The translations under genes were made by a program, and so were the position numbers. From an uncultured Bacteroidales bacterium (lineage in GTDB: Bacteria; Bacteroidota; Bacteroidia; Bacteroidales; FEN-979): a stretch of 64,000 nt of DNA. Shown one piece after another: positions 41,123 through 49,889 of the stretch. The stretch lies in the NCBI GenBank assembly GCA_903837605.1, contig CAILVF010000041.1, positions 75,524 to 139,523 of the forward strand, read 5' to 3'. The notes under the pieces were generated by a model that did not search any database, was not told the origin of the DNA, and saw only the letters and a program-made list of their open reading frames with translations. Each line of letters starts with the position of its first letter. The stretch's first letter is position 1.

Positions 41123-42736
41123 ATGGAAAACCGATTAGTTGAATCACCGGCCTGGAAGGGCCTGGAGTTACATTTTGGGGAGATCAGGGACATCTCGTTA
41201 CGGTCTTTGTTCGCAGGCGATGCGGAGAGAGGGGAGCGTTTTGTGGTCAATGACCTCGGCATTTATTTTGATTATTCCAAGCACCGTATTACTGCTGAGA
41301 CCCTGAACCTCCTCATCAGGCTGGCTGATGAAAGAGGCCTGGGCGAAAAAATCAATGCCATGTTCTCAGGCGAAAAGATCAACATAACCGAGAACAGGGC
41401 TGTATTGCATACCGCCCTCAGGGCCCCAAAGGGATCATGCATCATGGTTGACGGGCATAATGTGGTTCCTGATGTACATGAAGTGCTTGAGAAAATGGCC
41501 GGTTTCGCCAACAGCATACGCAGCGGGGAATGGAAAGGCTTTACAGGCAAAACGATCAGGAACATAGTGAATATCGGCATCGGGGGTTCCGATCTTGGAC
41601 CGGTAATGGCTTATGAAGCCCTGAAATTCTATGCGCAACGGAACCTTACCTTCCGTTTTGTTTCGAATATAGACGGAAGTGATTTTGCAGAAGCGGTATA
41701 TGGTTTGGAGGCTGAGGAAACTCTTTTCATTGTCGCTTCCAAGACATTCACCACGCTTGAGACCATGACCAATGCACGTACAGCAAGAAAATGGCTGCTT
41801 GAAAAACTGCAAAGCGATACGGCTGTGGCCAGCCATTTTGTAGCACTGTCAACAAACGAAAAAGAAGTGAGTGCGTTCGGGATTGATACCCGGAACATGT
41901 TTGGTTTCTGGGACTGGGTAGGTGGCAGGTACAGCATGGATTCTGCAATCGGTTTGTCAACAATGATCGCCATTGGCCCTGATAATTTTTGCAGGATGCT
42001 TGACGGCTTTCACCAGATGGACGAACATTTTCGGACAACCCCTTTTGAAAGGAACATACCTGTGATCATGGGGCTGCTGGGTTTATGGTATATTGATTTC
42101 TTCGGGGCCGCAACCCAGGCGGTTTTGCCTTATGATAATTACCTGAAGCGTTTTCCGGCGTACCTCCAGCAGCTTACGATGGAGAGCAACGGGAAGCATG
42201 TGACCCTGGATGGAACGCCAGCAGGATACCAGACCGGCGCAGTTTACTGGGGCGAGCCCGGGACCAACGGGCAGCATTCGTTTTACCAGCTGATACACCA
42301 GGGGACCTCGCTTATTCCCTGTGATTTTATCGGATTCAGGACTTCCCTGAACCCTCTTCCTCTTCACCAGGATTACCTTATGGCTAACATGATTGCGCAG
42401 GGCGAGGCCCTAGCTTTCGGGAGATCTGCAGGCGAAGTAAAGAAAGAAGGTGTTCCCGACTGGCTCGTGCCTCATAAAGTCTTTGAAGGAAACCGCCCGT
42501 CTTCGACCTTTTTCATGGACCGGCTTACCCCTGAAATACTGGGAAAACTCGTGGCCATGTATGAACATGCGGTTTACACCCAGGGAGTGATCTGGGGGAT
42601 CAATCCATTTGACCAGATGGGGGTGGAGTTGGGCAAGGTATTGGCAATGAAGATCATCCCGGAGCTCCATGACCGGCAAAAGACACTGGAACATGACAGT
42701 TCAACGAACCGGCTGATCAGGTATTACCGCGGTTAA
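41123..42736 (+). CDS. pgi: glucose-6-phosphate isomerase
   Basis: A 537-residue cytoplasmic enzyme, close to the usual 550. It interconverts glucose-6-phosphate and fructose-6-phosphate in glycolysis and gluconeogenesis. Motifs: [13 protein letters not shown] for phosphate binding, [27 protein letters not shown] (signature 1 with the catalytic region), and [18 protein letters not shown] (signature 2). The C-terminal [11 protein letters not shown] is typical. The 3' end overlaps the convergent archaemetzincin gene by 36 bases. Confidence 0.97.
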
Positions 42737-43255
42737 CTTCTCGCGGCAGTAGTGACAAAGGTTCTGGTTTTTCTGGTCAATGTCTTCAACATAGGTGCTT
42801 GACCGCATCACGCAGGTAGGGGTCATGCAATGGATCAATCCGAAGGTGTGGCCAAGTTCATGGATCACTTCTTTGGTAAACCTCTCCAGGAGCAGCTTTT
42901 CGTCGGCTTCTATGCCGTAACGTTCATTGCTTAGCCTGAAAAGTGAAGCTATCCCTGTTTGTCCGTTCAACATGGCCTGCCCGAAAATAAATGTCAGGAT
43001 GGGGATAAAAAGATCCACGCTGAATAACCCGATTGTTTTAAATGCCTTGGGTGTGGGGCTGGTGTTAAGGGCCTGCAAAATTTTATTCCCGTTGTATTGC
43101 CTCCTTCCGGGGTCGAAAAATTCGCTCAGATCCAAATGAGATTCTTTCAAAATTACAGGATACCTGAATTCCTGCCCAACAGCCTCTGCAATCTTTTCAA
43201 GAAAATTCTTCCCCAAATAACCAAAATTGATCAATGTGATATTTTGTTGGTTCAT
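42701..43255 (-). CDS. amzA: archaemetzincin-type zinc metalloprotease
   Basis: A 184-residue soluble protein. The core motif [12 protein letters not shown] gives the zinc-binding His residues and Glu of metzincins, followed by CMTPTC, the Met-turn VMRSS, and a C-terminal CHYC pair. The four Cys form the second zinc site that sets archaemetzincins apart. No signal peptide, so probably cytoplasmic. Substrates of bacterial archaemetzincins are not well established; aminopeptidase or endopeptidase activity is possible. The last 36 bases overlap the end of pgi on the other strand. Confidence 0.9.
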
Positions 43256-43320: not shown

Positions 43321-44661
43321 TCATTCCTCGGGCTTCAGATCATATTTTTTGATCTTATTGTAAAGCGTCACCCTGTCAACTTTCAACGCCTTGGCCGTTC
43401 TGGAGATATTCCAGCTGTATTTATTCAGGATCTGCCTGATAAAAGTTTTCTCGAAATCGTCAAGGCTTTCGATTGAATTATCGAGCATATCTTTCCCGAA
43501 TGGCAGGTCTTTTAAGGTGATCTTTTTACCGTTTCCTATAACGATAGCCCTTTCGATCATGTTCTCAAGCTCGCGGATATTACCGGGAAAGGGATACTCC
43601 TCCAGCCTCTGCATGGCAGCTTCATCAATTGTAACTGGCTGCTTATTCATCGAGGAGCAGTATTTTTTTATGAAATAATCAATAAGCAGTGGAATATCCT
43701 CAACCCTTTCACGCAGAGGAGGCACATTAATATTCACCACATTCAGGCGATAGTAAAGGTCTTCCCTGAAAAGGCCCTGTTCTACCATACTTTTAAGGTC
43801 CCTGTTCGTGGCGCATATAACCCTGAAATCAGAGGATGTTTCTTTGTTTCCCCCGACCCTTACAAAGGTCTTTGTTTCCAGGACCCTCAGGAGTTCGATC
43901 TGCATCTTGGAAGATATGGTTGCAATTTCATCGAGGAAGATGGTCCCGCTGTCGGCCATCTCGAACCTTCCTTTACGGTTATACATGGCCCCAGTAAAAG
44001 CACCTTTTTCGTGGCCGAACAATTCGCTTTCGAGCAGGCTTTCGGTAAGCGCCCCGCAATGCACACTCACAAGGGGATAATATTTTCGAGATGAGTTTGC
44101 ATGGATGGCCCTTGCAATCAGCTCTTTTCCGGTTCCGCTTTCACCTGTTATAATGACTGAAGAATTTGACTGTGCGACACTCTCAACCTGCTTCAGCACT
44201 TTCTTCATAGCTTCACTGTTCCCGATCAGGTCTTCGACGCTGTCGAGTGAAACGACTTTGTTTTTAAGCGCTTCGTTTTCCTGGGCCAGGAGGATTTGTT
44301 TTGAAGCATTCCTGATCAGGTGGGAAAGGTCATCTGGATCAAAAGGTTTTGTGATATAATCAAATGCCCCATCCTTCAGGGCCATTACAGCCGTATTTAC
44401 AGAGGCAAAAGCAGTCATCACAATCACTATTGCATCATTCCTGAGGGATTTAATCCTCCTGAGCATTTCCAGCCCGTCCATGCCGGGCATTTTAATATCT
44501 GTCAGGACGATATCAAAATAGGAAGATTCGATAAGTTGCAGCGCCATCTTCGCATTCTCTGCGCATTCCACCTGGTAGCCGTCTTCAATAAACCAGTTGC
44601 TTAAAGAATCCCTCACCGATTCTTCATCATCGACTATTAATATTGAGATCTTCTTGGCCAT
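43321..44661 (-). CDS. sigma-54-dependent response regulator (NtrC type)
   Basis: A 446-residue regulator. Receiver (about 5-120) with VDDE, phospho-acceptor Asp in IVLTDIKMPGMDG and Lys in YITKPFD. AAA+ sigma-54 domain (about 140-370) with Walker A GESGTGKE, the intact GAFTGA loop that contacts sigma-54, Walker B GTIFLDEIA, and R-finger region. C-terminal Fis-type helix-turn-helix (NISRTAKALKVDRVTLYNKI). It would activate sigma-54 promoters when phosphorylated by the kinase encoded 11 bases upstream. The most likely local target is the PstS/GcvH-like fusion gene at 46471-48165, which has a sigma-54-like promoter. Confidence 0.95.
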   Translation of the reverse strand: MAKKISILIVDDEESVRDSLSNWFIEDGYQVECAENAKMALQLIESSYFDIVLTDIKMPGMDGLEMLRRIKSLRNDAIVIVMTAFASVNTAVMALKDGAFDYITKPFDPDDLSHLIRNASKQILLAQENEALKNKVVSLDSVEDLIGNSEAMKKVLKQVESVAQSNSSVIITGESGTGKELIARAIHANSSRKYYPLVSVHCGALTESLLESELFGHEKGAFTGAMYNRKGRFEMADSGTIFLDEIATISSKMQIELLRVLETKTFVRVGGNKETSSDFRVICATNRDLKSMVEQGLFREDLYYRLNVVNINVPPLRERVEDIPLLIDYFIKKYCSSMNKQPVTIDEAAMQRLEEYPFPGNIRELENMIERAIVIGNGKKITLKDLPFGKDMLDNSIESLDDFEKTFIRQILNKYSWNISRTAKALKVDRVTLYNKIKKYDLKPEE

Positions 44662-44672
44662 TCTGTATTATC

Positions 44673-46325
44673 TTAATTTCTGATCAAAGGTATTGTTATT
44701 GAAAATGTAGTGCCCTGCCCGGGCTCGGATTTTACCTGTATTTTGCTGTTGTGGCTTTGTATGATTCCATGAACTATGGCCAGCCCAAGGCCAATCCCGC
44801 TTGCATTATGCTTGGTAGAAAAGAAAGGTTCAAAAATATGGGGGAAGTCATCCGCAGATATTCCTATGCCATTATCTATGATATCGAACCTCACGGTTTC
44901 TTCATTCGGATTTAATGTCCTGATGATTATTTCCCCGTTTTCATGTACCGCTTCACTTGAATTTACAAGCATGGCAACACAAGCCTGTTTGATCTGGTTG
45001 GGGCTGCAGTATATCAGGTCGGAAGTTGCCGAGAAATCTTTATAAAAGTGGATGTTTGCAATTTTAATAGGGTGGGTCATTAATTCATATGTCTCCTGCA
45101 GTATCTCATGCAAATGCCTGGGCTCGAAATCCTCCTGGTCTTTTTTAGAAAACTCAAGCAGGCCTTTTACAATATCGCCGCAGCGTTTTGCCTCGTTTTC
45201 GATAAGTTTTAGATGTTTCAGCATGGATTCCCGTTTGCTGGCATATAATTCGGGATTGCTTAGCTGCTTATAAATAAGCTTCGTATATATAAGTATACCT
45301 GATAAGGGATTGTTGATTTCATGGGCCACAGAGGATGAAAGTTTTCCCAGGGAAGCGAGCCGTTCAATATGGATCATCTCGTTTTGTGCTGCGCTTAACT
45401 CTTCTGACTTTTTCCTCACCTTATATTCAAGCTGCTGCGACCAGTTCTCCAACTCGTTGGTTGCTGCCTGAAGGTTGTCGAGCATCTCATTAAAAGCCTG
45501 GGATACCATTTTCATATCCTCAAGCTGGTTGGTCTTGATCACGAGGCGGGTGCTGGTATCGCCGTTAGCGACGGCAATGCTTGCTTTTACCAGGGCATTG
45601 AGGGGCCTTTTAATCCTTTGCCGGGTAAATATTATAAGAACTGTAACCAGGACTAAAGTGGTGAGTATTGCGAGCAGGAAAAATTCGGTTGAAGATTTCT
45701 GTATTGCTGTATCCAGTTCAGCCAACGGTATCTTGATAATGAGGGAACCGAGCACCTCTTCGCTTGGAGGATGTGCATGGCAGGAACTTTCGTAGCATGA
45801 TTTTTCGTTAAGTATTGGCAGTTGGATCAGCAGGTGCCTGCTTTTGCTGTCGTTGTGACTCATCCTGCAATAGCTGTCGGCATTGATGATCTTGTAGTGT
45901 TTCCCTTTTCCGGGAAACATTACTTTCAGATTGTTATGGCAGCTTATGCAGTTCGGGTTGCTGTGAAGATCATTAGTATCGGATGGAATGGATGTGTACA
46001 CCAGGTTGTCCTTGCTGTCGTACATGTTGACTTCATCAATGCCGGGCATGGTGTTGATAATATCAAGTGTGTTCTGAAGAGTGCTTTTATCATTTTCCAG
46101 CATGGAATGATAGAGGGATCCGCCGACAATGGAACCTATATTATTGCCGTTTTGGCGAATCACGGTATTCAGGTACTGCTCGTTAACCGAACGGAAAATA
46201 ATGCTGAGAGAAACGAAAAGGAAGACAGAGGAAACGAAAATGACAAAAACAACCCGGCTGTATATGGACGAACGAAATTGAACGTACTTCCTGAAAATCG
46301 GCTTTATGGGATTGTTTTTATCCAT
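44673..46325 (-). CDS. heme-c-motif sensor histidine kinase (NtrB/AtoS-like)
   Basis: A 550-residue membrane kinase. Two membrane helices (about 24-48 and 215-235) bound an extracytoplasmic sensor with a CISCH heme-c motif (126-130) and a CX4CH motif CYESSCH (177-183), then a HAMP domain, a coiled coil, HisKA with H-box VAHEINNPLSGIL (His335) and an HATPase with DNGIGI and GIGLGLAIVHG. Covalent heme in the sensor suggests redox, oxygen or nitric oxide sensing. Start chosen at MDKNNPIKP (46325); the longer frame to 46370 runs into a terminator-like hairpin. It forms a pair with the sigma-54 regulator 11 bases downstream. Confidence 0.9.
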   Translation of the reverse strand: MDKNNPIKPIFRKYVQFRSSIYSRVVFVIFVSSVFLFVSLSIIFRSVNEQYLNTVIRQNGNNIGSIVGGSLYHSMLENDKSTLQNTLDIINTMPGIDEVNMYDSKDNLVYTSIPSDTNDLHSNPNCISCHNNLKVMFPGKGKHYKIINADSYCRMSHNDSKSRHLLIQLPILNEKSCYESSCHAHPPSEEVLGSLIIKIPLAELDTAIQKSSTEFFLLAILTTLVLVTVLIIFTRQRIKRPLNALVKASIAVANGDTSTRLVIKTNQLEDMKMVSQAFNEMLDNLQAATNELENWSQQLEYKVRKKSEELSAAQNEMIHIERLASLGKLSSSVAHEINNPLSGILIYTKLIYKQLSNPELYASKRESMLKHLKLIENEAKRCGDIVKGLLEFSKKDQEDFEPRHLHEILQETYELMTHPIKIANIHFYKDFSATSDLIYCSPNQIKQACVAMLVNSSEAVHENGEIIIRTLNPNEETVRFDIIDNGIGISADDFPHIFEPFFSTKHNASGIGLGLAIVHGIIQSHNSKIQVKSEPGQGTTFSITIPLIRN

Positions 46326-46350
46326 AGGATTATTTTCACTGCAATATAAA

Positions 46351-46380
46351 AAAAACCGGTGATTTGACACCGGTTTTTTT
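46351..46380. terminator. intrinsic terminator-like hairpin ahead of the kinase gene
   Basis: Stem ACCGGTG / CACCGGT with a 6-base loop, flanked by A and T runs on both sides so it can act in either direction. In the minus direction it lies after the PstS/GcvH fusion gene and ends 25 bases ahead of the kinase ATG. It may end the first transcript or act as an attenuator for the kinase-regulator pair. Confidence 0.75.
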
Positions 46381-48165: not shown

Positions 48166-48203
48166 GGCTTTATAATTTCTGATTCATATCACCTATACTA
48201 TTA

Positions 48204-48219
48204 TCAATAATAATGCCAA
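48204..48219 (-). promoter_or_regulatory. sigma-54-like (-24/-12) promoter
   Basis: On the minus strand TTGGCATTATTATTGA: the -24 element TTGGCA is perfect, ten bases separate GG from the -12 dinucleotide, which is GA rather than the consensus GC. Predicted start is near 48192, 27 bases before the ATG of the PstS/GcvH fusion gene. A sigma-54 activator is encoded in the same locus. Confidence 0.5.
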
Positions 48220-48294
48220 ACCAAAAAGAGCTGGTTAAGTATAAGAAAATCAAGTAGATGAAGAAATGCATATTTATTTAATAAACCCAGCAAG

Positions 48295-48400
48295 TGTTGA
48301 AAAAATAAACAGTTGAAATTTTTCATCCATTTAAAAAGCTGAAAATGAGCACAAATAGGAGGTGTGTATAAATACTCAACACATGTTGAATAATTCAACA
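48295..48400. promoter_or_regulatory. TGTTGA/TCAACA inverted-repeat cluster, candidate enhancer sites
   Basis: TCAACA (48376-48381) and TGTTGA (48384-48389) form a palindrome with a 2-base centre. The same TGTTGAAT (48384-48391) also pairs with ATTCAACA (48393-48400). Further half-sites are TGTTGA (48295-48300) and AGTTGA (48311-48316). These lie about 100 to 200 bases upstream of the predicted sigma-54 start, the usual distance for activator binding. Confidence 0.5.
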
Positions 48401-48560: not shown

Positions 48561-49889
48561 ATGCAAAATTTCATAAGGAGAGGAAGGCTATTAATCATTT
48601 TAATTGGGGCCGGACTTATATTTAGCCTGGGTACCGATTCCTGTAAAAAAACTTCAGATACCAATTCCCAGGAGCAGGGAATGTTATTTTACCATCCTGC
48701 AGGCATCAGGATCGTGTCATTGAAAGGAAGCTATCTCGAAATGGGAATGCAATACGGCTACCATATGAAAACCGAGCTTCATCAATGGGCAAATTATTAT
48801 AATTCAGTTTGGAGCTCTGCGAATCCGCTTATTTATAATTTTATCACGATTCGGGCATTGGAAGCAGGAAACAAACTGTTTCTCAGTCAGAAAATAAAAG
48901 ATTTTATTGATGGGGAGGCACTTACTAGCGGATTGAGCATTACCAATGCGTATCTCCTTGACCAATGCCTGGCTTTTGATTATATGTTCAGCGGGCATAT
49001 AGGAGAAATTACCGGAGCTGCGTGTACATTCATAGGGGCTTATGGATCTGCAACCGTTGGGCATACTATTGTTGCACGGAACCTTGATCTGCAAAAACCC
49101 CTTGCAGTGAGGGACTACAATAGTGTGATTACCATAATGAATCCTTCAAACGGAGATCATAAAATTGCGACATTCGGGTTTGTTGGTTTTCCCCAGGGAT
49201 ACGCCCTGATGAATTTGGATAATGTTGTATTTACAGAGTATAATACCGGGAATTCGGCCGATCATGGTACTGATATCCTGCCGGGCTCAAAAGACATGAT
49301 GGATGTGGCATTTGATGCAATAACCGAGAAAAGCAACACGGATGCGCAAACCACAGCCGAGTACCTGAAAGCGGCGAGACTGCTTTCTCCTGCTTTTTTC
49401 GGGGTAGCCGATAAGGGCAATGTATTTGTTGTGCAACGCCCGATGAAGGCCGTGGGGATAATAACCCGGAACAGTCTCGGGCAGGGGATTAACGGTGTTA
49501 CCAATGTCTTTCTTGACAGTGCGATTAATGGAGTTAAACTCAGTATCTATAATGCCTCCACTGCCGTTGATGCACCGGAAAAAGATCTGGATACTCCCGC
49601 CCGTGGAATGGTACGATGGACAAACCTGGTAAGTTATTTTTCGGCTCATTCATCAGGCCTGGACATCAATTCATTAAAAACCATCATATCGACCGACATT
49701 GCTGAAAACGGAGTTTTTATCGGCGGATATGAGTCCACCGGGACCAATGCATACTGCAAGCAGGATGCGACTTTTGGTTCGGTGGTCATCGACCTTAACG
49801 ATCTCACCAATATATGGTGGCTCAGGTATGATTATTCTACAATGAATAAAACATGGGACAATGTGGATTTAACTCCATATATCCATTGA
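48561..49889 (+). CDS. C45-family acyltransferase/hydrolase-like protein
   Basis: A 442-residue exported protein (hydrophobic signal segment, then DSCKK, a weak lipid-attachment site). The N-terminal-nucleophile fold of the C45 / acyl-CoA:6-APA acyltransferase family is suggested by EITGAACTFIGAYGSATVGHTIVARNLDLQ, where Cys is the predicted self-cleavage site and nucleophile and ARNLD the conserved loop. Members cleave amide bonds such as penicillins, bile salts or N-acyl amino acids; the substrate here is unknown. The start at 48561 is set by a strong AGGAGG 14 bases upstream, rather than the longer frame at 48513. Confidence 0.8.
   Translation: MQNFIRRGRLLIILIGAGLIFSLGTDSCKKTSDTNSQEQGMLFYHPAGIRIVSLKGSYLEMGMQYGYHMKTELHQWANYYNSVWSSANPLIYNFITIRALEAGNKLFLSQKIKDFIDGEALTSGLSITNAYLLDQCLAFDYMFSGHIGEITGAACTFIGAYGSATVGHTIVARNLDLQKPLAVRDYNSVITIMNPSNGDHKIATFGFVGFPQGYALMNLDNVVFTEYNTGNSADHGTDILPGSKDMMDVAFDAITEKSNTDAQTTAEYLKAARLLSPAFFGVADKGNVFVVQRPMKAVGIITRNSLGQGINGVTNVFLDSAINGVKLSIYNASTAVDAPEKDLDTPARGMVRWTNLVSYFSAHSSGLDINSLKTIISTDIAENGVFIGGYESTGTNAYCKQDATFGSVVIDLNDLTNIWWLRYDYSTMNKTWDNVDLTPYIH

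Follow-up and report, generated by a model that had tools for sequence, protein, structure and literature searches.

A probable sigma-54-dependent promoter with an upstream dyad array before a PBP-like/GcvH fusion operon of uncultured Bacteroidota

Introduction

Transcription from a sigma-54 promoter starts about 12 bp downstream of the -12 element, depends on RpoN, and needs an activator that uses ATP. The site of one such activator, NtrC, is a 17-bp dyad with a 6-5-6 layout. For other activators, excerpts from two papers describe the upstream activating sequences (UASs): those of 15 groups of activators in Clostridiales, like those of NifA and FhlA, are TGT/ACA repeats that lie 10–12 bp apart (PMC6615313), and the UAS of NifA is given as TGT-N10-ACA (PMC7294313).

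Here we examine the region upstream of a gene that encodes a fusion of a PBP-like and a GcvH-like domain. The gene lies in a 64,000-nucleotide stretch of a contig from an uncultured Bacteroidales bacterium (the window; all positions refer to it). An original prediction, made by inspection of the DNA, had placed a sigma-54-like promoter and a cluster of inverted repeats before this gene. Both are real and both are conserved upstream of orthologues, so the evidence is now stronger than was first stated, and this stretch is very probably a sigma-54 switch. More specifically, we put at roughly 85% the probability that 48203–48400 holds the sigma-54-dependent promoter, together with the upstream activator array, of an operon for the fusion, a sensor histidine kinase (HK), and an NtrC-type response regulator (RR), and that the dyads of the array are bound by this RR. 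The kind of control region is well known, and the geometry of this member is unusually constant; its setting is one for which we found no description (neither this operon nor this motif appeared in the open-licence PMC literature, among the matches listed).

Materials and Methods

The fusion protein was matched at E ≤ 1e-40 in 47 of the 149 genomes searched, the window's own included, and 59 fusion loci were taken from the named genome collection. A total of 88 upstream regions were cut (window included), and 19 of these were dropped as duplicates or as shorter than 120 bp. The 69 regions kept include the window, and their fusion homologues are 37–100% identical. A further 13 regions were fetched later, one of them a duplicate. 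We scanned with a weight matrix for sigma-54 and a consensus for sigma-A, and in one region (L032) we assigned the -24 position manually (AGGCTCAATATTTGAA). Dyads were sought in windows whose offsets run from the T of TGG to the first base of the 17-mer: -186 to -176 for A, -168 to -158 for B, -97 to -88 for C, and -72 to -64 for D.

Results

Promoter and Dyads in the Window

The core of the -24/-12 element (Table 1) is TGGCAttattaTTGA on the minus strand (48218–48204). The element begins 53 bp upstream of the ATG of the fusion gene (48165), and if the GG is placed at -25/-24 then transcription is predicted to start near 48192. The -24 GG and the -12 TTG have the TGG-N8-TTG spacing of a sigma-54-dependent promoter; the last base of the -12 element is A instead of the C of TTGC. 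(The spacing had originally been written as TTGGCA-N8-TTGA, which is wrong: it is TTGG-N8-TTGA, or equivalently TTGGCA-N6-TTGA.) When the 395-bp intergenic region was shuffled with its dinucleotides preserved, 45 of 5000 shuffles produced a TGGCAYN5TTG[ACG] box, counting both strands.

Table 1. Features of the promoter region and operon in the window.
Feature	Position	Strand	Remarks
Sigma-54 -24/-12 element TGGCATTATTATTGAT	48203..48218	-	TGG-N8-TTG; GG 48217-48216, TTGA 48207-48204
Dyad A TGTTGAATTATTCAACA	48384..48400	-	TGTTGA-N5-TCAACA, 0 mismatches; centre about -200 from predicted start
Dyad B TGTTGAGTATTTATACA	48365..48381	-	2 mismatches; centre about -181; separated from dyad A by two bases
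Dyad C TGTTTATTTTTTCAACA	48295..48311	-	1 mismatch; centre about -111
Dyad D position	48271..48287	-	Degenerate here, 4 mismatches counted by eye; centre about -87
PBP_like_2 + GCV_H fusion, 564 aa	46471..48165	-	Gene downstream of the promoter
Sensor histidine kinase	44673..46370	-	CxxCH + CX4CH motifs (haem c type)
NtrC-type response regulator	43321..44661	-	REC, sigma-54 AAA+ with GAFTGA, HTH_8; candidate dyad binder

Five TGTTGA/TCAACA half-sites had been reported upstream of the promoter. Four of them are exact (at 48295, 48376, 48384, and 48395) and the fifth is merely approximate, while the tight array at 48376–48400 is as claimed, with TCAACA-N2-TGTTGA-N5-TCAACA. Of 5000 dinucleotide shuffles of the same intergenic sequence, three had at least four half-sites and none had a perfect TGTTGA-N5-TCAACA. 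A perfect 8-bp palindrome arm by itself occurred in 236 of the 5000, so the arm alone says little.

Elsewhere in the same genome, we found no sign of a wider regulon or of a second array. If up to one mismatch is allowed, there are 38 copies of the dyad (A and C of the window included), as compared to 12 for a reversed control, and among the 15 of these 38 that we inspected, the sole intergenic one is dyad A. When 13 genomes were searched for two exact TCAACA at the A-to-C spacing, the fusion promoter was matched in 11 (the A half-site is imperfect in the other two, G007 and G028), and none of the other matches had a neighbouring dyad in the first 80 bases. Within these searches, the sigma-54 promoter with its activator array is real and apparently confined to a single locus.

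Conservation Upstream of Fusion Homologues

The decisive evidence is a scan upstream of orthologues, which had been named as a check on the original prediction: promoter and repeats are kept, at fixed positions. In 65 of the 69 regions, TGGCA-N6-TTG is present within the last 130 bp. Two control windows taken from further upstream gave 0/69 and 0/68, and shuffles gave a mean of 0.2. With a looser -24/-12 pattern, 68 of the 69 regions were matched (controls 1/69 and 0/68, shuffle mean 1.25). As both patterns contain TTG, a fairer test is to take each TGGCAY in the last 130 bp and to ask what follows; TTG follows at the right spacing in 65 of 66 cases.

The dyads are conserved as well. Within two mismatches and at fixed offsets, dyad A is found in 61 of the 69 regions, B in 28, C in 60, and D in 14, and each of four control windows (11 positions each) gave 0/69. 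If the regions are collapsed at 75% identity to 64 clusters, A is present in 56 and C in 55 of them (controls 0/64). The outer positions of the dyads mostly carry 1–2 bits of information; the flanking columns carry 0.0–0.5 bits on the outer sides of A and B and 0.0–1.0 bits around C. A dyad within two mismatches was also present in all 12 of the further non-duplicate regions. As negative controls, we used seven PBP-only loci that lack the HK and RR (L189, L193, L195, L197, L199, L200, and L202). None of them has two dyads within 200 bp, and some have scattered dyads within two mismatches. Dyad repeats that lie about 80–200 bp upstream of the start and that are conserved together with an activator are what is expected of the UAS of an NtrC-type protein, and the array shows both features.

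In three loci (L089:6001-6684, L326, and L327), the match to the fusion covers just the GcvH part, which follows shortly after a promoter and dyads that are otherwise intact. In these loci, the PBP part may have been lost or may be dispensable.

Spacing of the Array

The distance from A to C is 86–89 bp in all 57 regions that have both within two mismatches (the search windows would permit 79–98), and the distance from A to B is 18–19 bp in 27 of 27. In a wider window, C (within two mismatches) lies 91–95 bp before TGG in 60 of 63 regions. The outliers are L089 (82 bp), L058 (83 bp), and L082 (104 bp). In L089 and L058 the whole array is shifted, by 9–11 bp; in L082, C is shifted by 11 bp and A and B by just 6–7 bp. 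Two other regions (L025 and L047) have degenerate dyads, with at least three mismatches, at the usual offsets. In the 12 further regions, C is 92–94 bp from the -24 element in nine (L322 and L327 with three mismatches; L315, whose -24 is an atypical CGGCCC, measured by eye), the whole array is shifted by 11 bp in L319 and by 7–8 bp, or less than a full turn, in L321, and no -24 match was found in L320. Thus, of the five displaced arrays, three are shifted in their entirety by roughly one turn of the helix, which suggests, but does not prove, helical phasing of the array relative to the promoter.

The Last Base of the -12 Element

The -12 element of the window had been described as one base off. 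Both elements are present as predicted, and the supposed mismatch is probably no defect. The base after TTG is A in 58 of the 69 regions, G in 7, C in 3, and T in 1, and these counts are conditional on TTG because the -24/-12 elements of the 68 regions other than L032 were located with a pattern that contains it. In the window's own genome, TGGCAYN5TTGN occurs at 87 sites, of which 79 were examined. Those within 150 bp upstream of an open reading frame have A in nine cases (the window's included), T in one, and C or G in none. Sites in coding sequence have A 23, G 18, C 13, and T 11 times, and the remaining four sites, which lie outside coding sequence and away from the start of any open reading frame, have C three times and A once. 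So, with A at 9 of 10 gene-upstream sites, TTGA looks like the local norm, albeit from small numbers.

The -12 base also varies by promoter: in family f120, which is from another class, 16 of the 22 boxes before the HK end in C and 6 of the 7 boxes before the first gene end in TTGG (leaving out repeats of one genome). The case for a functional sigma-54 promoter is independent of this base, and TTGC may not define the class of promoter in this lineage. If so, strict searches for TTGC would miss promoters.

The window's genome also has candidate TTGA sigma-54 promoters before genes that resemble DnaK, Lon, an ABC transporter, and YceI (L111, L136, L158, and L117; named by eye). Two papers, as excerpted, include protein quality control genes among the targets of sigma-54 in Bacteroidota (PMC12316311; PMC9723704), which agrees with the DnaK- and Lon-like sites.

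The Operon and Its Candidate Activator

In Bacteroidales, the usual order of genes is fusion, HmcB/HybA-like, HmcC/HybB-like, second GcvH, HK, and NtrC-type RR. As in most relatives, L034:7736-10588 holds HmcB/HybA-like, HmcC/HybB-like, and second GcvH-like genes between fusion and kinase. Other classes of the phylum have unfused genes, which run GcvH, HybA, HybB, one more protein, HK, and RR. We did not find the HmcC/HybB-like gene in the window's genome or in three congeners (G001, G004, and G007; G004 is 86% complete), and it is present in the four other genomes that were searched. As the promoter, the fusion, the HK, and the RR remain without it, the unit may still signal while lacking its former electron-transfer target.

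All 56 kinases that we examined have CxxCH and CX3-4CH motifs. These motifs of the haem c type make it likely that the kinase responds to a haem-based redox or ligand signal. In the GcvH domain of the fusion, the column of the lipoylation lysine has G in 58 of 58 proteins, with K one position on in all 58, so the domain may not be lipoylated.

On the plus strand, the divergent gene at 48561–49889 resembles autoproteolytic hydrolases of the C45 type, with a score of 60.5 bits that does not reach the cut-off (85). A peptidase M54 gene (42701–43255) follows the regulator, as it does in the six other loci where no HmcBC-like genes separate the fusion from the kinase; many of the remaining loci stop short of this position.

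That an NtrC-type protein is encoded in the locus is confirmed: the RR has the receiver domain, the AAA+ domain with GAFTGA, and the HTH_8 domain that are expected of this type. The genome also encodes RpoN (one match over the cut-off) and has six full-length sigma-54 activator domains. RRs from other classes are 54–59% identical. The recognition helix begins with DRVTLY in 12 of 12 Bacteroidales RRs and in 7 of 8 others, counting the RRs in which the helix was readable. (C_L198, which is 34% identical and is another regulator, was left out of this count; it is included in the mean identities.) The exception, L185, has DRATLY together with the half-sites TGTGGA/TGTCGA (TGTSGA; n = 1). A second variant of the helix was not found in 32 genomes of the family of L185, and a lone variant gives no covariation test of helix against half-site.

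In other classes, 12 of the 21 regions upstream of the first gene have at least two dyads (at least 8 of the 10 fixed letters, within 120 bp), as compared to 0.2 from shuffles; the other nine have no dyad cluster. Many of these 21 regions are without a -24/-12 match, and the distance from promoter to array varies. In some loci of another class (L185, L186, L188, L226–L242, L244, and L245), a second sigma-54-like box, in some cases accompanied by a dyad of its own, lies about 40–75 bp upstream of the kinase gene.

In two genomes, G028 and G031, the HK-RR pair is on a different contig from the fusion operon. Both genomes keep the RR (89% and 81% identical), and the array remains with the fusion operon; in G028, each dyad has two mismatches. 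This is as expected for an activator that acts in trans. Neither an array nor a sigma-54 box was found before the relocated pair (L313 and L314), so autoregulation is not universal. On the strength of this co-conservation, we propose that the dyads are recognized by the RR of the operon rather than by one of the five other activators.

Alternative Explanations

The promoter could be sigma-54 dependent while the dyads bind another factor, such as a repressor of the MarR type. The operator of MexR is GTTGA-N5-TCAAC, and dyad A holds these letters exactly. However, the array tracks the operon across classes, and the DNA-binding protein that is conserved alongside it is the NtrC-type RR; a MarR gene is absent from the six named recurrent families of the neighbourhood, and no MarR family was found among the operon genes, which are the genes that we ran against Pfam or NCBIfam. 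Also, several sites at about 85–200 bp upstream of the start, with fixed offsets from -24/-12, have the layout of an activator and not of a repressor. Overall, binding by another factor seems improbable.

Less probable still is that the dyads control the divergent gene instead of the fusion gene. They do sit in the intergenic region that the two genes share, but the family of the divergent gene is not common to four or more of the loci that we compared, and an alignment of the genus loses similarity shortly past dyad A, whereas the dyads hold their distance to the fusion promoter. So, the dyad element belongs to the fusion promoter. We give just as little credence to the idea that a housekeeping promoter of Bacteroidota (TTTG plus TAnnTTTG) was mistaken for a -24/-12 element. 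The window has TTTG-N19-TATAGGTG where the element sits, and 13 of the 69 regions have a loose housekeeping-like pair at some point within their last 110 bp, which makes a second promoter possible in some genomes. In contrast, a -7 box anchored on the -24 TTTGG is present in just one of the 69, and TTG follows at the -12 spacing after nearly every TGGCAY. Thus, the sigma-54 promoter with activator sites remains our preferred reading.

Discussion

We propose that the haem-c-type kinase phosphorylates the NtrC-type RR that is encoded two genes downstream, and that dimers of the RR bind TGTTGA-N5-TCAACA (core TGT-N11-ACA). Once phosphorylated, the RR would assemble at about -200/-181 and at -111, plus a weak site at -87. 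From there it would loop to RNA polymerase-sigma54 at -24/-12 and drive the ATP-dependent formation of the open complex from about 48192. In this genome, the levels of the HK and the RR would rise too, which would be a positive feedback. Most relatives have the HmcB/HybA-like and HmcC/HybB-like genes in this operon as well.

A bolder reading is that A/B and C/D form a rigid, phased platform (the distances among A/B, C/D, and -24 are kept within a few bp, and shifts of the whole array tend to one turn). This platform would serve a self-contained redox unit, made up of the haem-c kinase, the PBP-GcvH partner, and the NtrC activator, which has outlived its electron-transfer targets and uses a TTGA -12 that is particular to the lineage. 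We regard this combination as possible but rather doubtful.

These results offer a concrete candidate operator sequence and a promoter for a two-component system that many uncultured Bacteroidota have. They also offer a clear target operon, with HmcBC/HybAB-like electron transfer and GcvH- and PBP-like proteins. The near-fixed geometry amounts to a natural data set for the study of helical phasing in activation by sigma-54.

How does this locus compare with known systems? As in Hmc and Hyb modules, the operon of most relatives has iron-sulphur and NrfD-like membrane subunits (in L034, the proteins score 305 bits for HmcB and 402 bits for HmcC, below the cut-offs). Unlike in those modules, GcvH-like and PBP-like proteins stand alongside, and the window's genome gave no match to the HmcC-like gene. 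The RR has the receiver, AAA+, and Fis-type HTH domains of NtrC, AtoC, and ZraR, and the dyad is of 17 bp with a 6-5-6 layout, as NtrC's is. The RR scores 481 bits for AtoC and 411 bits for ZraR in NCBIfam, both below the equivalog cut-offs, so we do not file it as AtoC, ZraR, or NtrC. In contrast to these systems, the partner kinase has two motifs of the haem c type.

Finally, the array shares with the TGT-N10-12-ACA UASs, as the excerpts describe them, its outer TGT/ACA (here N11), its multiple copies upstream of -24/-12, and an activator gene in the same operon. It differs from these UASs in its inner bases (TGTTGA/TCAACA), in its host, which belongs to the Bacteroidota, and in having up to four sites at near-fixed offsets over 37–100% protein identity. 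Judged by its letters and layout, the dyad fits the published type of sigma-54 activator enhancer.
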